Shown here in pieces: positions 4,052-18,641 of a stretch of 26,201 bases of DNA; positions within the stretch are counted from its first letter, which is position 1; each line of letters opens with the position of its first letter. Both the position numbers and the translations under genes were made by a program. This stretch comes from a virus: IMG/VR virus record IMGVR_UViG_3300023184_000463, positions 1 to 26,201 of that record; one strand, written 5' to 3'. The notes beneath the pieces were generated by a model. That model did no database searches and was not told the origin of the DNA. It saw nothing but the letters and a program-made list of their open reading frames with translations.

Positions 4052-4628
4052 GTATCCCAACTGGTTCTCCCTCTATGCACAGGACTACTTTAAGGATTTA
4101 CTGACTAAGTTTAAGGACAAGCCAAACCTGCATTTCTTGCAGATAGGTGTCTATACCGGTGATGCCAGCCTATGGCTGATGCAGAACATACTTACTGACA
4201 AGAGTTCCATCCTTACCGATGTTGATACTTGGCAGGGATCTGATGAAGAGATCCACCACGAGATGGACTTCTCAGATATTGAGAGAGTCTACGATGATAA
4301 GTTAAAAGAATTTTCTAATGTAATTAAATGCAAGATGGAAAGCCACAAGTTCCTTGCCACCACCGATGATAAAGAGATCTACGATTTCATATACATCGAT
4401 GGAGATCACACAGCACAAGCAGTATTTCTTGATGCCAGCCTAGCGTGGAAAGCACTTAAGCCCGGTGGGATTATGGCATTTGATGATTACCTATGGGAGC
4501 CAGAGTTCCCAATCAATCTACGACCACAGCCAGCGATTGATCTATTCGTCATTCTAATGAAAGACCATTTAACTTTGTTAGGAACAGGATCCCAAATATG
4601 GATAAGAAAAGAGTTAGAAACCTACTAG
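4023..4628 (+). CDS. Class I SAM-dependent methyltransferase
   Basis: A 201-aa protein with a methyltransferase fold of the Methyltransf_24 type. The SAM-binding glycine loop is [14 protein letters not shown] (about residues 38-51), with an acidic residue ending the next strand (DVDTW). A conserved [11 protein letters not shown] follows near residue 123. Then comes [13 protein letters not shown] (about 145-157), typical of small-molecule or sugar O-methyltransferases encoded in glycan clusters. The substrate cannot be read from sequence. Its position between tail and lysis genes suggests modification of a virion or surface glycan component, but that is inference. The gene overlaps its neighbours by 29 and 31 bases, so it is part of the late operon rather than an insertion. 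Confidence 0.75.
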
Positions 4629-6208
4629 CAGTATTCTTTTTAACTTTTGGAACATCACTATGGTTTATACCTGAATCTCATGCTGAGCAGACAGGACAAA
4701 TAACAGTTACCTGTGCCAATGCAGGTGGTGAATCAAGAGAGTTCAGAGTTGGTTGGGATAACACAACTCAATTCTTTCAAGGCAAAGGAAACATTGCTGC
4801 ACTCTTTTGTTCTATTGCTACACAGAATCAATGGCAAACTTTTGTATCTACAACTGCACCGGAAAGCACTTGGTATTACAACGGAGTAGCACCTACTCCG
4901 GCACCGTCTCCAAGTCCAACACCGACTCCAACTGAGACTTCAGCTCCGCCAAATGTTCCTGCGACTGAACCAAGTCCAACTCCAACGCCTGTAGCCTCGC
5001 CTTCTGTGGAGCCGACCCCTGAACCCAGCCCACAACCAACCCCGACACAAACCCAAACACCATTGCCAACACCAACGCCGATTGTGGATCCATCGCCTAC
5101 TCCTTCTCCATCAGAATCACCCATACCAACCCCAGTAGTAAGCCAGTCACCAAGCCCACAACCAAGCCCCACTCCAGAGCAGCCAAGTCCAACACCGACA
5201 CCAGAGCCGCTACCCACGCCAGTAGTAACGCCAGCAGTAGAGCCTTCACCAATACCTTCACCTACACCCACCCCGGTTCCAGAACCTCAACCGACTCCTC
5301 AACCTGTACCAGATCCGGTACCAATGCCAGAACCGGTGCCTCTTCCTCAGCCAGTTCCTCTTCCTCAACCAACCCCACTTCCAGAGCCAGTTCCAGTACC
5401 TCAGCCCGAACCTGTGCCATCTCCTGAGCAGTTACCCGAACCACCTGCTCCAGAGCCTGAACTACCAGCTCCAGAACCCGAAGCAATTCCGGATCCTGCC
5501 CCTGTGCCAGAGCCTGAGCCAGAGCCTGTTCCAACTCCTGCTCCCGAGCCAGAGGTAGTTCCTGATCCACCAGCTCCTGAACCGGAATCTGAACCTCCAT
5601 TACCTGTTGAACCTCAACCAGAGCCAGACCCTGAACCTATTCCAGAACCTGCCCCAGAACCTGCACCACTTCCTCAACCTGAACCTCCTGTTATTGAACC
5701 TGAGCCACCAATGGTAGCAACGGAGGAATCAACTCCGGAAGAACGACAGGCTATTGCAGAAAATTTAATTGAAGAAGCTGCTGCTTCAGGTAAAGCAGTA
5801 ACAGCAGAAGCGATCCAAGAAGCAGGTCTGACTTATGAAGACTTGCCACCTGAAACACCAGTTGAAGTTCGTCAAGATGAGAACGGAAACGAAGTAATTA
5901 TTACTGCTGAAGTGGCTGCTGCACTTGTGTTATTAGAAAGCCCAGCAGAACTTATCTCTGCCATCTTCGATAATCCTGCTCAAGCTTTACTTGCTATCAC
6001 AAGTATTGGTGCTGATATGAGTGATGAAGAAAGAGCAGAGTCAGAAAAGATTATTGTTGCCTCGGTTATCGCAGGACAAGCAGCAGTAACAGCCGCCGGT
6101 ATGGCGGCATCCTCTACAACCAGAACCCCCTCTGGTGGTGGATCTACAGGTGGCGGCGGAGCCGCATCGGGTAGAGAAAGTAAAGGCGTAAGGAGAAGAA
6201 AACCTTGA
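4598..6208 (+). CDS. Secreted or surface proline-rich repeat protein
   Basis: A 536-aa protein starting inside the methyltransferase 3' end. Residues 1-29 form a signal peptide: basic MDKKRVRN, a hydrophobic core [16 protein letters not shown], and a likely cleavage after SHA. A small domain (30-95) holds two cysteines (39 and 71) that could form a disulfide. Residues 97-371 are low complexity: PSPTPTP-type units first, then PEPEP and PVP units, an extended polyproline rod. Residues 372-480 are helical and acidic. Residues 485-504 are hydrophobic ([20 protein letters not shown]). A Gly/Ser linker and a basic end (RRRKP) follow. The layout suggests an exported protein spanning the wall, with a possible C-terminal membrane anchor. 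The lysis genes are next; a spanin-like or surface-exclusion role is conceivable but unproven. Confidence 0.7.
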
Positions 6209-6619: not shown

Positions 6620-7132
6620 ATGGGTCAAAGAGCAGACTTTATTGCAGTAGCAAAGGGTGAACTCAATGTCATCGAGGGCCCAAAGGATAACGAGACCAAG
6701 TATGGAGCCTTTACTAAGGCTAACTTCCTACCTTGGTGTGGTTCATTTGTGATGTGGTGTGCCAACGAAGTTGGCTTGAAGATTCCTAGCTGTGTATCCA
6801 CAGTAGCCGGAGCCACAGCATTCATGAAGAAGAATCAATGGGAGAAGGCCAGCGATGAAGCGACCCCTCTACCCGGAGACATAGTCTTCTTTGACTTCCC
6901 TAACGATGGAGTAGATCGAATCTCTCATGTCGGTATCGTGGTCAAGGATAACGGCGATGGTACTGTTACCTGTATCGAGGGCAATACTGCCCCTGATAAG
7001 AAGGGTGACCAACGCAATGGTGGACAAGTCTGCCTGAAGGTTCGTGCCTTCAAAAAGAAGAATGGTTCCAAGCTACGCAAGTCACAAGCCGTGACAGTCG
7101 TTGGCTTTGGCAAGCCAGTCTTTAAGTCATAA
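6620..7132 (+). CDS. CHAP-domain endolysin
   Basis: A 170-aa peptidoglycan hydrolase consisting of essentially one CHAP domain. The catalytic Cys is C40 in PWCGSFVMWC, the His is H103 in ISHVGIVV, and the third residue is E120 or N122 in CIEGNT. PLPGDIVFFDF (about 83-93) is the typical strand before the His motif. CHAP enzymes cleave as amidases or endopeptidases within the peptide part of peptidoglycan. There is no signal peptide and no obvious separate wall-binding domain, although the basic C-terminus (FKKKNGSKLRKSQ) may bind wall. It lies three bases after the holin-like gene and ahead of another small membrane protein, so this is the main lysis cassette. Confidence 0.85.
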   Translation: MGQRADFIAVAKGELNVIEGPKDNETKYGAFTKANFLPWCGSFVMWCANEVGLKIPSCVSTVAGATAFMKKNQWEKASDEATPLPGDIVFFDFPNDGVDRISHVGIVVKDNGDGTVTCIEGNTAPDKKGDQRNGGQVCLKVRAFKKKNGSKLRKSQAVTVVGFGKPVFKS

Positions 7133-13157: not shown

Positions 13158-13255
13158 AGAAATTTTTTTTAATTGCAACTCTTGTAATTACATTGGTGTT
13201 CTTCGTTGCTAAGTTCGTGATGGATGCCATCATCGAACTAGAAGATGATGACTAA
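13154..13255 (+). CDS. 33-aa single-helix membrane peptide
   Basis: A tiny gene starting with GTG (GTGA overlap with the previous stop) and ending TAATG with the sigma-like gene. The peptide is MKKFFLIATLVITLVFFVAK followed by FVMDAI and an acidic tail ELEDDD: one transmembrane helix with a basic N-terminus. Overlaps on both sides support it. Function unknown. Confidence 0.55.
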   Translation: MKKFFLIATLVITLVFFVAKFVMDAIIELEDDD

Positions 13256-13896
13256 TGCAAGAAAAAGATCGTGCTGAGGATCATCTCGATGATCTCGTGC
13301 ATATATCCGCAGCACACATCCATCGCAGGTTTACTGGCTATGTAGACAAAGAAGATTTAATTCAAGAGCTTCGAGTCTATGTTCTTAAGCGACCTCACTT
13401 AGCCAAGATGTTGGATGAGGCTTACGAGGTAAGCAAGGATGAGACTAAGTGGGTAGCAAGACGGATCATGGCACGATTCCGCAGGACAGTTGAGAAGTAT
13501 TCTCGTAAAGAGAAAGCAGCAAAGCTTGGCTACTCAACTGGCGATGAATTCTTCTATGACACAGCAACGATTGCAAAGATGTTGCCGGTTGCATTTGAGT
13601 TTGATACTCACGGTGCAGTATTGGTGGACAAAGTAGATGATGGAACTCCACGCAAACCATCGGTGCCAAGTGAGGGTGGCAATATATTGGCGATGGTGAT
13701 TGATCTTAGATCTGCCATTGATTTACTGGATACTGATGAGCAGGTGATGTTACGCAACAGGTATTCCACTAGCCCAATGACTCTTTCTGAGATAGCAGAA
13801 GAGATGGGTATTAGCGATTCAACAGTAGATAGAAAGATTCAAGGCTCACTAAGAAAGATCATCGATCACTTAGGAGGGCCAACGCCTTGGGTCTGA
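13255..13896 (+). CDS. Sigma-70-like RNA polymerase sigma factor
   Basis: A 213-aa protein. Residues 15-48 (AHIHRRFTGYVDKEDLIQEL) resemble sigma region 2 core-binding helices. A basic segment follows (KWVARRIMARFRRTVEKYSR, 65-84). Residues 152-204 are a clear region 4 helix-turn-helix: AIDLLDTDEQVMLRNRY, then MTLSEIAEEMGISDSTVDRK. The middle linker is unusual. It is probably a phage-encoded alternative sigma directing late transcription, perhaps of the structural genes. Its co-occurrence with WhiB, which binds sigma region 4 in the host, suggests coordinated takeover of RNA polymerase. The gene begins in a TAATG overlap and ends overlapping the next gene. Confidence 0.7.
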   Translation: MQEKDRAEDHLDDLVHISAAHIHRRFTGYVDKEDLIQELRVYVLKRPHLAKMLDEAYEVSKDETKWVARRIMARFRRTVEKYSRKEKAAKLGYSTGDEFFYDTATIAKMLPVAFEFDTHGAVLVDKVDDGTPRKPSVPSEGGNILAMVIDLRSAIDLLDTDEQVMLRNRYSTSPMTLSEIAEEMGISDSTVDRKIQGSLRKIIDHLGGPTPWV

Positions 13897-14545: not shown

Positions 14546-14552
14546 AACTAAA

Positions 14553-14570
14553 GCCCTCCCGAAGGAGGGC
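14553..14570. terminator. Bidirectional hairpin terminator between convergent operons
   Basis: GCCCTCC (14553-14559) pairs with GGAGGGC (14564-14570) around CGAA, which reads TTCG on the minus strand. Outer CTAA/TTAG arms extend the stem. On the minus strand the stem is followed by TTTAGTTTT, so it best terminates the minus-strand operon, while it also closes the plus-strand replication operon. Confidence 0.75.
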
Positions 14571-14582
14571 CTTAGCACCTAG

Positions 14583-14616: not shown

Positions 14617-15021
14617 TTACTTTCCGTAATCTTCTTTTAAGAATCTACCACAATATGGCCAAGGCTTAGAGCCTCGATCAACATAGATGTGAAGAGCTAC
14701 ATAGAACTGTTCGAGCAATGTGGAATCTTTCGGTTGCTTGCCGCTGTTGCCACCGTGAGCAATCCAAGTCCGTGGATACTCAATCTGGAATGCCCCCTGA
14801 AACTGTTTGCGTTTGCCGCTGACGGCGTTGAGCCGACCAGAGGATTCACACATAGCCAATTTTTGCCACGATAAAGGTAGTTGATCCAAAGATAAGTCCG
14901 GAATCTCCACGACTTTTGGAACTACCTCTTTAGATTTTATTTCTAAATGGATCGGGGCGTTTGGGGTCAGCGAAATCGCCAACCCCAAAGCCACCAATCC
15001 AATTATGAATCGGTGATGCAT
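14617..15021 (-). CDS. Rpf-like peptidoglycan hydrolase (secreted)
   Basis: A 134-aa protein; ATG at 15021 was chosen because AAGGAG lies seven bases upstream and the start overlaps the preceding stop (TAATG). Residues 1-22 form a signal peptide or anchor (MHHRFIIGLVALGLAISLTP). Residues 50-134 form a resuscitation-promoting-factor/transglycosylase-like domain: WQKLAMCESSGRLN with the catalytic Glu at 59, FQGAFQIEYPRTW, and C124, which could pair with C58. Rpf enzymes cleave glycan strands and are characteristic of Actinobacteria. As a phage product in an operon opposed to the main lysis cassette, it may remodel the wall early, or weaken it during lysis. It is the terminal gene of the minus-strand operon. 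Confidence 0.75.
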   Translation of the reverse strand: MHHRFIIGLVALGLAISLTPNAPIHLEIKSKEVVPKVVEIPDLSLDQLPLSWQKLAMCESSGRLNAVSGKRKQFQGAFQIEYPRTWIAHGGNSGKQPKDSTLLEQFYVALHIYVDRGSKPWPYCGRFLKEDYGK

Positions 15022-15149
15022 TACTTCTCCTTCCACAATAGGGCTGTTATCAGCCCCAGTATCGGTATCGCAATTAGTATCGGTTGATTCTCCGCTATCC
15101 CAACAGGGAGAGTAAAGAATAAAAGTATGACTAGGATAAAGCCTACCAA
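15021..15149 (-). CDS. Two-helix small membrane protein, holin candidate
   Basis: A 42-aa gene starting at TTG with GAGGTGG about six bases upstream, inside the 3' end of the previous gene. Its stop overlaps the Rpf start. The protein has two hydrophobic helices, VGFILVILLFFTLPVG and PILIAIPILGLITALLW, separated by IAENQ, and ends KEK. Immediate coupling to a wall hydrolase suggests a holin or export helper; that is inference from position. Another reading frame is also open across this stretch but encodes no recognisable features. Confidence 0.65.
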   Translation of the reverse strand: MVGFILVILLFFTLPVGIAENQPILIAIPILGLITALLWKEK

Positions 15150-15283
15150 CCAACCACCTCACAATCTCGGTCAGTCGTGCCACACGCAGGGCAACGAGTC
15201 ATAAAGCAGCCTTCTTCGTGACCCTTGATGTCGCAATCGAGCCAATCCCAATCTTCAGGGGATACACATTTATTCTGAGTCAT
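15143..15283 (-). CDS. 46-aa cysteine-rich protein
   Basis: Starts MTQNKCVSPEDWDWLDCDIK and contains six cysteines (6, 17, 26, 31, 34, 41), including C31-x2-C34 (RCPACG), which suggests a zinc ribbon. AAGGGG precedes the ATG, and it overlaps both neighbours (14 bases upstream, 7 downstream). Function unknown. Confidence 0.6.
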   Translation of the reverse strand: MTQNKCVSPEDWDWLDCDIKGHEEGCFMTRCPACGTTDRDCEVVGW

Positions 15284-15428
15284 AGGGATTCCCCTTCGCC
15301 GTAAAGTTGAATGACTTGTATTCGATTACGAGCTTGATAATTTCATCTAAGCATTCGCCGTCAGTCATGTCCTCTCCGTCAGTAGCGATTACTTTTTCAA
15401 TGGCATGAACTAATTCGTAATCTCTCAT
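15270..15428 (-). CDS. 52-aa hypothetical protein
   Basis: ATG in GAGGTAGCCTAATG: the Shine-Dalgarno is formed by the last sense codons of the upstream gene. The protein is acidic and helical (MRDYELVHAIEKVIATDGED, then ECLDEIIKLVIEYKSF). An internal ATG at residue 21 (15368) has GGAGAGG upstream and could give a shorter form. Function unknown. Confidence 0.6.
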   Translation of the reverse strand: MRDYELVHAIEKVIATDGEDMTDGECLDEIIKLVIEYKSFNFTAKGNPYDSE

Positions 15429-15592
15429 TAGGCTACCTCGCCTTGATTATTCCTAGTGATCTGACCAATGGAATGAATCGAATAACTTTCATCTTCATCT
15501 AAGTTTAGAAAGTTATCCCAATCCCATTTGGCAGGGTCGAACATACTTGTAATTTCGAAAGTGATTAAGTAAGTCTCGGGTTTCTTATTCAT
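15428..15592 (-). CDS. 54-aa hypothetical protein
   Basis: Start in GAGGTAGCGTAATG, coupled to the upstream stop. The protein is MNKKPETYLITFEITSMFDP, then WDWDNFLNLDEDESYSIHSI, ending GEVA. Alternating beta-like and acidic segments are seen, with no cysteines or membrane helix. It is similar in style to its 81-aa neighbour. Function unknown. Confidence 0.6.
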   Translation of the reverse strand: MNKKPETYLITFEITSMFDPAKWDWDNFLNLDEDESYSIHSIGQITRNNQGEVA

Positions 15593-15837
15593 TACGCTAC
15601 CTCTCTCTCTTCGGTTACGGGGAAACCGTTTATCTCAACGATAACTAAATCATCACTTATGACTCCCCCAATATTGTTCGAATCTATTAGACAGCAATCA
15701 ACGAACCAATCGCTTTCGTTACGAATCCAATCGCTTGCTTCTGAAACAGACTTGAATTCCTTCATAGTGTAAGTCGAATGTTCCGGCAAAACCTTGCCGT
15801 CAATGTCTCTTACTTCATACTTCACATGAATAGGCAT
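15592..15837 (-). CDS. 81-aa hypothetical protein
   Basis: Start chosen at the ATG in GAGGTGGAGTAATG (15837) rather than the in-frame codon at 15870. The protein opens with a beta hairpin (MPIHVKYEVRDIDGKVL), has a helix SVSEASDWIRNESDWFVDCC, then DDLVIVEINGFPV, ending EREVA. The beta-alpha-beta order suggests a small compact fold. Function unknown. Confidence 0.65.
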   Translation of the reverse strand: MPIHVKYEVRDIDGKVLPEHSTYTMKEFKSVSEASDWIRNESDWFVDCCLIDSNNIGGVISDDLVIVEINGFPVTEEREVA

Positions 15838-15947
15838 TACTCCACCTCGCAATCGTGTCCGTAATACCACTCTTCAGCTTGTGATTCGTCTAGTAAATCG
15901 AAGATGCGTGAGCATTCAACACACTTCGCTTTCGTCTGAATCTTCAT
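15837..15947 (-). CDS. 36-aa zinc-finger-like protein
   Basis: MKIQTKAKCVECSRIFDLLD, then EEWYYGHDCEVE: C9-x2-C12 ... H31-x-C33, a minimal zinc knuckle. The start follows the recurring AAAAGGAATCAAA leader; the stop is in GAGGTGGAGTAATG. First gene after a hairpin-containing gap, so possibly the head of a sub-operon. Function unknown. Confidence 0.6.
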   Translation of the reverse strand: MKIQTKAKCVECSRIFDLLDESQAEEWYYGHDCEVE

Positions 15948-15971
15948 TAGTTTGATTCCTTTTCTCTAGGT
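15945..15971 (-). promoter_or_regulatory. Recurring leader motif, copy A
   Basis: Reads ACCTAGAGAAAAGGAATCAAA, written here in two parts (ACCTAGAG, then AAAAGGAATCAAA), then CTAATG on the minus strand. It contains the ribosome-binding site AAAGGA. The same element precedes the starts at 17139 and 17844, and in shorter form 17362. Confidence 0.6.
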
Positions 15972-16000
15972 AATTCGGTATTCAAGATGAACACCCCACA

Positions 16001-16024
16001 GGGCAGGGAGATAAACCCCTGCCC
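16001..16024 (-). repeat. Hairpin in intergenic gap
   Basis: GGGCAGGG (16001-16008) and CCCTGCCC (16017-16024) form a perfect eight-base stem. It lies just after the stop of the 55-aa gene on the minus strand and before the recurring leader. There is no T-run, so it may be a weak or attenuating terminator or an RNA-stability element. Confidence 0.5.
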
Positions 16025-16033
16025 CATAGGTCG

Positions 16034-16201
16034 CTAATCTTTCAGTTGTGTTAGGTCAATCATTCGAGTCGCTGTTCTGCTTTCTTCAGCATTATCTCGG
16101 TCAGTAATCCACCACTCCAGCCCCTTCAGCCTTTCGCCGAGGTCATGGTTTGCTAATGGATCACTAGAATAAATCACTACCCATGTCTTATGAACAGTCA
16201 C
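16034..16201 (-). CDS. 55-aa hypothetical protein
   Basis: Start GTG at 16201 in a GTGA overlap with the previous stop, with AGGGGGTGA upstream; an ATG at 16231 lies within the neighbour and is less likely. The protein is MTVHKTWVVIYSSDPLANHD, then LKGLEWWITDRDNAEES, ending DLTQLKD. Mixed alpha/beta, no cysteine. Function unknown. Confidence 0.55.
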   Translation of the reverse strand: MTVHKTWVVIYSSDPLANHDLGERLKGLEWWITDRDNAEESRTATRMIDLTQLKD

Positions 16202-16293
16202 GCAGTCACCCCCTCTCCACACTTTTCGCATTCACAATTCGCCACACAGATAGGGCAGTCAGTCGAGCAATCGCCCAGATGAATAGTCGTCAT
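16198..16293 (-). CDS. 31-aa cysteine-rich peptide
   Basis: MTTIHLGDCSTDCPICVANC, then ECEKCGEGVTA: seven cysteines in 31 residues (9, 13, 16, 20, 22, 25 and neighbours), with CPIC and CEKC pairs, plus His5. Likely binds zinc or another metal. GAAGGGA precedes the ATG, which overlaps the upstream stop (ATGA). Function unknown. Confidence 0.55.
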   Translation of the reverse strand: MTTIHLGDCSTDCPICVANCECEKCGEGVTA

Positions 16294-16646
16294 GTTCTTT
16301 TCCCTTCTCGGAATTCATAACCCAGCGAATCCATATCTAAATCTTCTGCCCATTCAGGACAGGAAATCATTTGGTCGCCGAGATACCAAAAGGAATCTGA
16401 ACTATTTTCGGTATACAGCCCAACCCAGCGATAGGTCACGCCGTCATGCTTAATGATTACGGAATCTTCATAAGCAAGGGCGACAGATGTCGCCGATAGA
16501 ATTTCAACGCCAACGCCGTCAACGCCGCCGTCATGCTTTTGGCATTCACAGCCACAGCATGAGCAGTCGCAGTCATGGTGATTCGATTCACCGCAGGTTT
16601 GGCATAGCCAATTCGAGCATTTGCACTCTTCACACATTAGGGGCAT
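16290..16646 (-). CDS. 118-aa protein with N-terminal cysteine cluster
   Basis: ATG in GGGGGGAAGTAATG. The first 38 residues hold about ten cysteines and several histidines (CEECKCSNWLCQTCGESNHH, then CDCSCCGCECQKH), giving several CxxC or CxC sites for metal. The remaining 75 residues form a beta-rich acidic domain (VALAYEDSVIIKHDGVTYRW, ENSSDSFWYLGDQM). The second half looks like a small domain with the metal cluster appended. Function unknown. Confidence 0.65.
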   Translation of the reverse strand: MPLMCEECKCSNWLCQTCGESNHHDCDCSCCGCECQKHDGGVDGVGVEILSATSVALAYEDSVIIKHDGVTYRWVGLYTENSSDSFWYLGDQMISCPEWAEDLDMDSLGYEFREGKRT

Positions 16647-16813
16647 TACTTCCCCCCTTCTTCAGGGAAGAAGCATTCGGAGATAGTTCCCCAGCAATAG
16701 CCCCTTTCGGTATAAGAGACATGACCCGAGATATAGAGAACCCCAGCGATTAGAGAACCCCAAAAGAGAACCCGAACAGCGAACCGAATTCGGTAATAGT
16801 TGCGTGATCTCAT
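16646..16813 (-). CDS. 55-aa single-helix membrane protein
   Basis: Starts in an ATGA overlap. The N-terminus is basic (MRSRNYYRIRF), then one hydrophobic helix (AVRVLFWGSLIAGVLYISG) and a short external-type tail with two cysteines (C40, C46) ending EEGGK. The stop overlaps the next start (TAATG). The GGGGGGAAG coding for its last residues is the ribosome-binding site of the next gene. Function unknown. Confidence 0.6.
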   Translation of the reverse strand: MRSRNYYRIRFAVRVLFWGSLIAGVLYISGHVSYTERGYCWGTISECFFPEEGGK

Positions 16814-17139
16814 AGCCCGAATTCCGATTCGACTTCGAGAAGCTCGGAGATGAAGCCCCGAACATCATCAGGGCGGTTTGCGTAATCGGTAAGTGCATCA
16901 GCCAAAAGCCCTAATTCCATGTAGCCGAATGAATCGGCAGGGTCTGCCCACGAATCAAGGCTCGAACCGTATTCGTCAGCACTCCAGCCGATTAGGTCGA
17001 GGAACTTTCGGAAAGGCTTAAAGCCTTCGTGATTAGATGACCATGAATAAAGTCTTTCGACTCCCTCAGCATAGGCAGGGGCAGAATCTGAAGCCCACGC
17101 CAGCGAACCCGATTCTTTCGGGGTCTTAGTTTCGTTCAT
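16810..17139 (-). CDS. 109-aa acidic hypothetical protein
   Basis: Start after the recurring leader (AAAAGGAATCAAAAGAATG). The protein is strongly acidic (SADEYGSSLDSWADPADSFG, then RPDDVRGFISELLEVESEFG) with several aromatic residues and no cysteine. Acidic early phage proteins can be DNA mimics or anti-restriction factors, but no ArdA or Ocr signature is visible, so this is only a possibility. Confidence 0.6.
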   Translation of the reverse strand: MNETKTPKESGSLAWASDSAPAYAEGVERLYSWSSNHEGFKPFRKFLDLIGWSADEYGSSLDSWADPADSFGYMELGLLADALTDYANRPDDVRGFISELLEVESEFGL

Positions 17140-17161
17140 TCTTTTGATTCCTTTTCTAGGT
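17137..17161 (-). promoter_or_regulatory. Recurring leader motif, copy B
   Basis: Minus strand reads ACCTAGAAAAGGAATCAAA then AGAATG. It is identical over 19 bases to the copy at 17842-17867 and includes the ribosome-binding site. Confidence 0.6.
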
Positions 17162-17168
17162 GTCTTTC

Positions 17169-17189
17169 AATGTCTAACCCTTAGACATT
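17169..17189. repeat. Perfect 9-bp inverted repeat
   Basis: AATGTCTAA (17169-17177) and TTAGACATT (17181-17189) around CCC. It lies in the 91-base gap upstream of the 109-aa gene. Hairpin in the leader, or operator. Confidence 0.6.
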
Positions 17190-17194
17190 AGGCA

Positions 17195-17220
17195 GGGGAG
17201 AGAACCGAAGCCCTCTCCCC
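17195..17220. repeat. Perfect 8-bp inverted repeat
   Basis: GGGGAGAG (17195-17202) and CTCTCCCC (17213-17220) with a ten-base loop, directly after the stop of the 43-aa gene on the minus strand. Terminator-like without a T-run; with the 17169 hairpin it makes a tandem structure. Confidence 0.55.
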
Positions 17221-17230
17221 CACTTAACGA

Positions 17231-17362
17231 CTAAGCGAGAACCGCTTCGATTCCTGCTCGTGAATAAGCCTTCACTAAGGCGTTCATTCGGGTCTTACTT
17301 AGTGGGGCAATTACTAGAACCTCACCAGTAGCCGAATCTTTCAGAATGATGTCGTGCTTCAT
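17231..17362 (-). CDS. 43-aa hypothetical protein
   Basis: MKHDIILKDSATGEVLVIAP, then LSKTRMNALVKAYSRAGIEA, ending VLA. The ribosome-binding site GGAGAGGA is embedded in the last codons of the upstream gene, and the ATG overlaps its stop (TAATG). A beta hairpin followed by a basic helix is predicted by eye. Function unknown. Confidence 0.6.
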   Translation of the reverse strand: MKHDIILKDSATGEVLVIAPLSKTRMNALVKAYSRAGIEAVLA

Positions 17363-17380
17363 TAGTTTGATTCCTCTCCA
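17360..17380 (-). promoter_or_regulatory. Recurring leader motif, copy D (coding)
   Basis: Minus strand GGAGAGGAATCAAACTAATG. The AGGAATCAAA core shared with the other copies here encodes the C-terminal residues ESN of the upstream protein, so the motif was kept even inside a coding region. Confidence 0.5.
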
Positions 17381-17844
17381 GCAATTACATCTGAAAGAGA
17401 TTCGATTCCTGCAACGACTTTTGCGTGTAGTTCTTTTGCCATGTTCTCGAATAGTTCAACAGGATAACCAGCGTTAAAGCAACGAACCAAAAGAGAACCG
17501 AGAGAATATTCCGAATCTAATTCGGAAGCCTTACTCAATGCCTTTTGCGTTAGTTCCTTATCTCCCTTTCGGTATTCGCTCAATGCGAGCAGGGTATAAA
17601 GCCCGACAGATTCGCCAGCCGTAGCAATTAAGAAGCGAAAGAATGCCGAAGAATCTTCCGCCGTTAAGTCGATAAGTGTTCTCCCCATTACATAGTCACG
17701 AATCTGAATTCCAGCATTAAAGCCAGCGACAGCCGAAAGAATCTCGTTCTCATTTATCGGAGATGAATCTCGGAATGAATCGAGAACAGAATCGAAAGCC
17801 TTAACGGCTTCGGCATGAGTAGGGGTCTGAATTGTTGCGTTCAT
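17362..17844 (-). CDS. DUF4192-like protein
   Basis: A 160-aa protein, first gene of the minus operon, starting after the recurring leader. Residues 45-150 (YVMGRTLIDL..., LYTLLALSEYRKGDKELTQK, LDSEYSLGSLLVRCFNAGYP) resemble the C-terminal part of actinobacterial DUF4192 proteins. In that family a helical segment with RxGD and DPxYSLAxLL-type motifs recurs. The usual N-terminal half of the family is missing, so this is about half length. The family has no assigned biochemical role. It is likely host-derived. Coding sequence is unusually dense in GAATC/GATTC words. Confidence 0.6.
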   Translation of the reverse strand: MNATIQTPTHAEAVKAFDSVLDSFRDSSPINENEILSAVAGFNAGIQIRDYVMGRTLIDLTAEDSSAFFRFLIATAGESVGLYTLLALSEYRKGDKELTQKALSKASELDSEYSLGSLLVRCFNAGYPVELFENMAKELHAKVVAGIESLSDVIAGEESN

Positions 17845-17867: not shown

Positions 17868-17898
17868 ATGAATTCGGAAGCCCCGAACCCATGACCTA
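17862..17898. repeat. Compound hairpin upstream of DUF4192-like gene
   Basis: Outer arms TAGGTTATG (17862-17870) and CATGACCTA (17890-17898) pair at eight of nine positions. Inner arms TTCGG (17873-17877) and CCGAA (17883-17887) are perfect. Probably a leader structure or operator. Confidence 0.5.
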
Positions 17899-17941
17899 AT
17901 TGTGAAGCAAAAGCACCGGCAATTCAAGAACCGACAGCCCC

Positions 17942-18042: not shown

Positions 18043-18101
18043 TGAAGCCCCCGAGCCCTGCCCCATGTCTGCCCCATTCCCTGCCATGTCTGAAGCCTTA
18101 G

Positions 18102-18130
18102 CCCCTGCCCCTGCCCTACCCCCTGCCCCC
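18102..18130 (-). promoter_or_regulatory. G-quadruplex motif
   Basis: On the minus strand five G-runs of three to five bases are separated by two-base CA or TA loops. This satisfies the G4 consensus. It would lie in the transcript or template upstream of the minus operon. Confidence 0.5.
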
Positions 18131-18418
18131 TTGATTCCATGCCGTAGGTCTTAGGCGATTAGTTAGAACCCGAACATTAAAAGCCCCTAGTTCTCGGGCG
18201 GTCTGCCCCTCTCCATGTCTCCCCGACACGCCGAGAATCTTGGTTTACATAATGTTAGTTATCGGCATAGGGGGGCTCGACACGCAGGCAGGCTAAATTG
18301 ACCCGAGTGCTTAAAACGGCTGGGGCCCCTGTATATATGTACCCAGAAAAATATTTTTGATAGGATTTCGAGCTGTAAAATAGGCTCTGAGCAGGACTTT
18401 TACACACAATAGATAGAA

Positions 18419-18434
18419 TGTGATACAAATCACA
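18419..18434. promoter_or_regulatory. CRP/GlxR-type binding site
   Basis: TGTGATACAAATCACA matches TGTGA-N6-TCACA exactly, the consensus of CRP-family regulators including actinobacterial Crp and GlxR. Its centre is about 60 bases upstream of the start predicted from TATAGT at 18475-18480, a class I activator position. Confidence 0.6.
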
Positions 18435-18445
18435 GGGCATAGTGT

Positions 18446-18466
18446 GGGATAAAACCTATTTATCCC
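18446..18466. repeat. Perfect 8-bp palindrome, candidate operator
   Basis: GGGATAAA (18446-18453), ACCTA, TTTATCCC (18459-18466). It covers the position where the -35 of the adjacent TATATATAGT promoter would be, so it may be a regulator-binding site. Confidence 0.55.
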
Positions 18467-18470
18467 GGCT

Positions 18471-18480
18471 TATATATAGT
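18471..18480 (+). promoter_or_regulatory. Candidate -10 element for packaging operon
   Basis: TATATATAGT offers TATATA or TATAGT as -10 with no recognisable -35, as expected for an activator-dependent promoter. The terminase start is about 180 bases downstream. Confidence 0.4.
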
Positions 18481-18487
18481 AGGAGGA

Positions 18488-18509
18488 TAATTACTTGCTA
18501 AAGTAATTA
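18488..18509. repeat. Perfect 9-bp inverted repeat
   Basis: TAATTACTT (18488-18496), GCTA, AAGTAATTA (18501-18509). It falls around the predicted transcription start. Confidence 0.55.
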
Positions 18510-18519
18510 GACGACTACA

Positions 18520-18567
18520 CCGGCTCTAGGGAGCCGGAGCGAGCCCTAGCGAGCAAAGGCGACCTAG
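18520..18567 (+). repeat. CTAG-rich hairpin cluster
   Basis: CCGGCTC-TAGG-GAGCCGG (18520-18537) is a perfect seven-base stem. An alternative pairing joins CTAGGG (18526-18531) with CCCTAG (18544-18549). Further CTAG words follow in ACCTAG and CCCTAG. The two pairings are mutually exclusive, so this could be a structural switch or a packaging-site element. Confidence 0.5.
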
Positions 18568-18641
18568 AAGCCCCTAGTAAATGCCCAGTAGTCTGTTCTT
18601 TTTCAGAACCGCTAAACCCAATGAAAAATCTTTGGCGACCA

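Follow-up and report, generated by a model that had tools for sequence, protein, structure and literature searches.

Paired hairpins at two gaps in a phage operon of tiny genes may mark where its transcript is cut into cassette mRNAs

Clustered hammerhead ribozymes in prophages have been proposed to cut long phage RNAs down to operon- or gene-length mRNAs (Perreault et al. 2011, PMC3088659). In cluster K phages, the inverted repeats of the extended start-associated sequences (ESAS) keep their sequence and not their pairing (Pope et al. 2011, PMC3203893), and at the gene 90-91 junction of the cluster K phage Adephagia a hairpin is followed by an ESAS promoter and a start-associated sequence (SAS) (PMC11373665). 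In the cultured Planktophila phages LanE43AprE7 and LanE43-AprF5 (hereafter E7 and F5), hypothetical genes lie in a variable island whose junction elements are not described (Kavagutti et al. 2023, PMC10202952). Here we analyse a virus record of 26,201 bases, IMGVR_UViG_3300023184_000463 (its whole stretch is called the window), and within it a minus-strand operon of fourteen open reading frames (ORFs) at 17844-14617, two of whose junctions carry a pair of hairpins followed by the motif ACCTA. We propose that a single transcript is cut at these structured junctions into cassette mRNAs, a reading to which sequence comparison leads us to give a probability of about 0.58.

The fourteen ORFs, numbered g01 to g14 from 17844 downwards, are flanked by two plus-strand gene runs. 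The original prediction described at least fourteen coupled ORFs in one run; all fourteen are there, and coupling holds at 11 of the 13 junctions, with overlaps of 1 or 4 nucleotides (TAATG, ATGA, GTGA) at nine and of 7 or 14 nucleotides at two (15149/15143 and 15283/15270). The other two junctions are true gaps, 17230-17140 (91 nucleotides, junction A) and 16033-15948 (86 nucleotides, junction B). The operon is thus real but not a single unbroken chain: the gaps, whose twin hairpins had been overlooked, divide it into three cassettes, g01-g02, g03-g07 and g08-g14. In both gaps the parts follow the same order, namely stop codon, a strong hairpin 1, hairpin 2, ACCTA, Shine-Dalgarno sequence and start codon. 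Before g01, ACCTA (17866-17862) likewise follows a leader hairpin, and hairpin 1 is absent there. The signals and RNA elements are as follows.

17899-17927, minus strand: predicted SigA-like operon promoter, TTGAAT (17927-17922), 17 nucleotides, CACAAT (17904-17899); consensus match only
17868-17892, minus strand: leader hairpin before g01, equivalent to hairpin 2; about 25 distinct relatives also have a hairpin here
17192-17223, minus strand: junction A hairpin 1, putative 3' end of cassette 1; covariation
17168-17190, minus strand: junction A hairpin 2, putative 5' leader of cassette 2; covariation, and found by the junction B model
17157-17161, minus strand: ACCTA start-associated motif of g03; CCTA enrichment at gap-led starts
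15996-16029, minus strand: junction B hairpin 1, putative 3' end of cassette 2; covariation
15977-15995, minus strand: junction B hairpin 2, putative 5' leader of cassette 3; covariation, with every cell of helix 2 paired (100%)
15967-15971, minus strand: ACCTA start-associated motif of g08; CCTA enrichment at gap-led starts
14547-14576, minus strand: ordinary intrinsic terminator with T-run at the operon end; terminator scan

Relatives were collected via terL and then through alignments of g07 and g14, which gave about 130 related contigs. Some of these represent the same populations, and the tests of selection and pairing used distinct sequences only. At junction A (15 sequences, 24 pairs), 93.9% of cells are paired and 11 of the 24 pairs show double changes, with a covariation of 0.404 against 0.142 after shuffling; several pairs take three pair types, for example AU, CG and GC. 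At junction B (27 distinct sequences, 21 pairs), 95.2% of cells are paired, nine pairs show double changes, and the covariation of 0.306, against 0.205 after shuffling, is reached by none of 500 shuffles. Moreover, sliding the partner by 1-3 columns lowers pairing at junction B to 44-54%. The arm sequences differ between the two junctions within one genome, and the pairing alone is kept. This bears on the possibility that a DNA-binding regulator uses the inverted repeats as operators, a role proposed for ESAS. Palindromes do recur upstream of several genes in one operon, as they do for ESAS (PMC3203893), but the ESAS behave in the reverse manner, and we rejected a sequence-specific operator because the hairpin arms differ within a single genome; it is the least probable of the readings considered.

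A covariance model built solely from junction B recovers junction A of the window at E=1.4e-7, together with first-gene leaders and the junctions of distant relatives in 542 kb searched. Of its matches beyond junction B, 35 were examined: each stops at most a few bases from a start codon, and wherever the upstream gene is in view the match starts shortly after the stop codon of that gene. Weak matches on the antisense strand are these hairpins seen in mirror image. The 73 distinct gaps (from 114 operon loci) have a mean folding energy of -35.2 kcal/mol, against -18.3 kcal/mol for shuffled letters. CCTA lies within 37 nucleotides of 66 of the 73 distinct gap-led starts, against 55 of 455 coupled starts, as part of a leader motif ACCTA[C/G]A-AAAGG whose ACCTA[C/G] lies 18-23 nucleotides from the start. 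Within the leader, sequence conservation is highest in the segment from ACCTA through the Shine-Dalgarno sequence to the start; hairpin 2 stops just ahead of this segment, and the first-gene leader carries both. Such an arrangement would suit translational insulators or standby structures, which block ribosome coupling and expose the Shine-Dalgarno segment while the RNA stays uncut. However, insulation gives no reason for a second, longer hairpin straight after the stop codon and leaves the replacement by hammerheads in related phages (see below) unexplained, so that we regard it as improbable.

We then considered where transcription might start and stop. Before g01, 25 of 26 distinct relatives carry a TTG-type hexamer, a spacing of exactly 17 nucleotides and a hexamer with A at position 2 and T at position 6; in one of the 25 (L119) the distance is a different one, and a stricter promoter scan did not list the window's own site. 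Transcripts from the predicted promoter would begin where the leader hairpin has its base, so that this hairpin would sit at their 5' end. Promoter-like hexamers matching at least 8 of 12 positions occur before g01 in 16 of 26 cases, against 7 of 73 internal gaps and 32 of 455 coupled starts; SigA-like sites are therefore no commoner in internal gaps than at coupled starts. Moreover, neither junction hairpin 1 has a T-run or was flagged in the terminator scan, in contrast to the operon end, and the missing T-run led us to reject intrinsic terminators at the junctions. These data weigh on the foremost rival explanation, in which hairpin 1 terminates transcription, a fresh promoter follows and the region is made of three separate transcription units. 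The same order of parts is found at the Adephagia gene 90-91 junction (PMC11373665), hairpin 1 directly follows the stop codon, and the phage encodes a sigma-like protein. But the real terminator of this phage has the T-run that hairpin 1 lacks, promoter-like hexamers stand out before g01 and not in the gaps, and hammerheads at the same kind of position would be sensible only with RNA running through. We consider this rival unlikely, if less so than insulation.

The layout also invites comparison with the cluster K SAS/ESAS (PMC3203893). In both cases a short conserved motif accompanies a Shine-Dalgarno sequence before some starts, with an inverted repeat upstream, among the non-structural genes of an actinobacteriophage. 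However, the SAS is a 13-bp sequence, GGGATAGGAGCCC, 3-8 nucleotides before the start, whereas the window motif is ACCTA[C/G] at 18-23 nucleotides; the ESAS arms conserve sequence without maintaining pairing, whereas the window does the opposite; and the ESAS contains a SigA-like promoter, for which window-type internal gaps show no excess (counts above). Because all three defining features are lacking, we do not assign the junctions to SAS/ESAS despite the similar layout. In addition, the window junctions have a further hairpin after the upstream stop, unlike SAS/ESAS.

Related phages offer a more informative parallel. Type II hammerheads that reach the Rfam gathering score were found in L013, L128, L132, L139, L145 and L150, and a pattern search adds those of L041 and L122. 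Stem II shows compensated pairs (GUC/GAC, GAUC/GAUC, GGC/GCC). Every Rfam match lies immediately 5' of a start, and the upstream stop codon abuts or overlaps the hammerhead in 8 of 9 cases, the upstream gene being in view in 8 of the 9. Furthermore, one gene family, the g04 type, has a hammerhead in front of it in L013 and a twin hairpin in L101; its L013 and L101 proteins share 43% identity (E=1e-14). Stems III and I of a type II hammerhead form two successive hairpins, with the cut between them, so that stem III would be the counterpart of hairpin 1 and stem I that of hairpin 2. The likeness to the prophage hammerheads (PMC3088659) is that RNA elements lie between short phage gene blocks with a proposed role in transcript cutting, and that hammerheads occur at equivalent junctions in the window's relatives; the difference is that the window junctions consist of two simple hairpins and ACCTA, with neither a GAAA/CUGANGA core nor an Rfam match. 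A degenerate hammerhead in the window was rejected on these grounds, Rfam matches having been sought down to E=10.

We now return to the cutting of a single transcript. The fourteen genes would form one transcription unit, from the SigA-like promoter before g01 to the normal terminator after g14, and the long mRNA would be split by the two structured junctions into three cassettes. Hairpin 1 would close off the upstream cassette as a protective 3' end, while hairpin 2, with ACCTA and the Shine-Dalgarno segment, would become the 5' leader of the next one and copy the leader of the primary transcript. That the g01 leader lacks hairpin 1 is what this scheme predicts, in which hairpin 1 would be part of the cassette before it. 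The cut would most likely fall either between the hairpins or at ACCTA, which is single-stranded. Some relatives would make it with the built-in type II hammerhead at the same kind of position, and in the lineage of the window a host nuclease, RNase III or RNase E, is the probable agent. The early mRNA of phage T7, processed by RNase III, is an example of nuclease-processed phage mRNA; the likeness lies in intercistronic hairpins that can be cut to give stable, gene-length mRNAs, the cutting being putative in the window. As an outcome, cassettes could be swapped between phages, each with its own mRNA stability and translation. Gene conservation, pairing by covariation, position, the promoter-like sequence at the head only and the hammerhead matches in relatives are what the sequences show; cotranscription, cleavage and the enzyme responsible we infer.

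Several points weigh against it. The window junctions give no match, even at E<=10, to the Rfam covariance model of the type II hammerhead, RF02276, whose core comprises GAAA, NUH and CUGANGA, and the twin hairpins have no known ribozyme core, no GAAA or CUGANGA and no Rfam match. Hairpin 1 could instead end transcription, and a phage-specific sigma factor (sigma-70 r4) encoded at 13255-13896 makes unrecognised internal promoters possible. The mycobacterial RNase E site is RN|CNU, a purine and any base, the cut, then C, any base and U (PMC10641625); ACCTA agrees with it loosely, with A-C-C-U in 65 of 66 cases and a purine at -2 in about 41 of 66. Finally, the gap leaders of the cultured phages E7 and F5 do not carry the ACCTA motif. 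The twin hairpin appears to be undescribed so far. Whether freshwater actinobacterial phages have, in the twin hairpin with ACCTA, a new kind of RNA punctuation that is exchangeable for hammerheads and cuts polycistronic mRNA into swappable cassettes is in our opinion an even bet; the strong form, in which the twin hairpin is itself a new self-cleaving RNA, is very improbable.

The nearest named TerL proteins are those of E7 and F5, with 49% identity to that of the window. These phages (PMC10202952) likewise have a minus-strand run of tiny genes beside terL with structured gaps of 95-105 nucleotides, and share WhiB and a sigma factor with the window; g08 has a homologue in E7 (67%, E=5e-11). 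They differ, besides the TerL distance, in their leader motif, GACAGGAGAAT, and in gaps that fold as a three-way junction plus a hairpin (single-sequence folding only); we rejected these three-way junctions as hammerheads because they had no Rfam match. The public records of F5 and E7 (L212 and L213) are unannotated; the minus-strand run of F5 beside terL has about twenty tiny ORFs, and a putative WhiB-like gene, judged by eye, lies at L212 5030-4677. The window has the features of this phage group of Ca. Nanopelagicales, namely terL relatedness, WhiB and sigma-70 r4, and its G+C content is about 0.40-0.53 per kb (group about 45%). Because of the TerL relatedness and the shared WhiB and sigma factor, a freshwater actinobacterium from Ca. 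Nanopelagicales is the probable host.

The genes themselves are conserved. Searched at the nucleotide level against phage records, the region gave no match, and g01 (160 residues) used alone as a query against viral contigs found no relatives. In the related contigs, 13 of the 14 ORFs have in-frame homologues (6 to 123 loci per gene), with median ratios of nonsynonymous to synonymous substitution rates (dN/dS) of 0.11-0.41 and substitutions enriched at third codon positions; these three properties place the ORFs above chance. Conservation and purifying selection, on which the original prediction was to be checked, are thus found for 13 genes. Its further proposals, a DUF4192-like protein, an Rpf hydrolase and mostly undescribed products, agree with our searches: the two Pfam matches exceed the gathering scores (that of g01 covers profile positions 199-319 only of 321), and most products, although conserved and under purifying selection, match nothing in Pfam, PHROG or PADLOC. 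Starts are ATG throughout, except for g07 (GTG, 16201) and g13 (TTG, 15149, kept in relatives).

17362-17844, minus strand: g01, 160 residues, C-terminal part of DUF4192 (PF13830, E=3.7e-7); 28 distinct homologues, dN/dS 0.31
17231-17362, minus strand: g02, 43 residues; 26 distinct homologues, dN/dS 0.28
16810-17139, minus strand: g03, 109 residues, phrog_33275 (unknown function), E=6.4e-8; dN/dS 0.26
16646-16813, minus strand: g04, 55 residues, one membrane helix; 47 distinct homologues, dN/dS 0.38
16290-16646, minus strand: g05, 118 residues, Cys-rich N-terminus and a further domain; dN/dS 0.41
16198-16293, minus strand: g06, 31 residues, Cys-rich; 27 distinct homologues, dN/dS 0.20
16034-16201, minus strand: g07, 55 residues, GTG start, conserved GLEWWIT and TQLKD; 56 distinct homologues, dN/dS 0.13
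15837-15947, minus strand: g08, 36 residues, Cys-rich; 29 distinct homologues, dN/dS 0.11
15592-15837, minus strand: g09, 81 residues; 4 distinct sequences, dN/dS 0.19
15428-15592, minus strand: g10, 54 residues, nearly orphan; no relative at E<=1e-3
15270-15428, minus strand: g11, 52 residues; 14 distinct homologues, dN/dS 0.14
15143-15283, minus strand: g12, 46 residues, Cys-rich; 7 distinct sequences, dN/dS 0.18
15021-15149, minus strand: g13, 42 residues, TTG start, hydrophobic (membrane) peptide; 56 distinct homologues, dN/dS 0.18
14617-15021, minus strand: g14, 134 residues, signal/anchor segment and transglycosylase (Rpf-like) domain with CESSG (PF06737, E=6.2e-11); dN/dS 0.14
14948-15001, minus strand: RNA hairpin within the N-terminal (signal/anchor) codons of g14; synonymous-shuffle test

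The gene set is mosaic, and neighbours vary between phages with near-identical terminases. As the first gene behind junction B, different phages carry members of at least five unrelated families. The Cys-rich N-terminus of the g05 type is fused to differing C-terminal parts across phages, and the second domain of g05 is in L004, L005 and L010 part of the gene after junction B. For g10, one weak match (35%, E=0.002) was seen to a longer ORF in L010.

The last two genes form a recurrent pair, the g13 family usually standing immediately 5' of the Rpf-like gene (each in more than 120 loci). The catalytic Glu of g14 lies in CESxG, and E59 is invariant in alignment A2. The peptide g13 could be holin-like or an export partner, although the window also has a CHAP endolysin at 6620-7132; action of g13 and g14 on the cell wall could come at any stage. 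In each of the 47 distinct homologues tested, the hairpin within g14 exceeds synonymous shuffles in stability (z<-2, median -4.4, against -0.7 for a control stretch), which is selection on RNA within a coding sequence, exerted via synonymous codon choice.

Elsewhere in the window, neither PADLOC defence families nor tRNAs were found. The non-coding stretch 18045-18580, between the operon and terL, is 87-93% identical to L002-L007 while the adjoining operon is shuffled, and could hold promoters or a packaging site. A long repetitive Pro/Glu-rich ORF (4598-6208, plus strand) adjoins the virion genes. The original prediction took the operon for a candidate early host-takeover set. The SigA-like promoter predicted before g01 and the strand opposite to the virion genes are compatible with early expression, and a part in host takeover would be conjectural.

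Altogether, these abundant freshwater phages carry many conserved proteins of fewer than 60 residues that standard annotation is likely to overlook. The small-gene cassettes of a single phage group are separated at the same kind of site by hammerheads, twin hairpins or three-way junctions. For the question of why phages carry hammerheads between genes, the junctions described here make direct tests possible. Indeed, a cultured pair of host and phage exists for this group, Planktophila LanE-43 with E7 and F5, in which RNA ends can be mapped.

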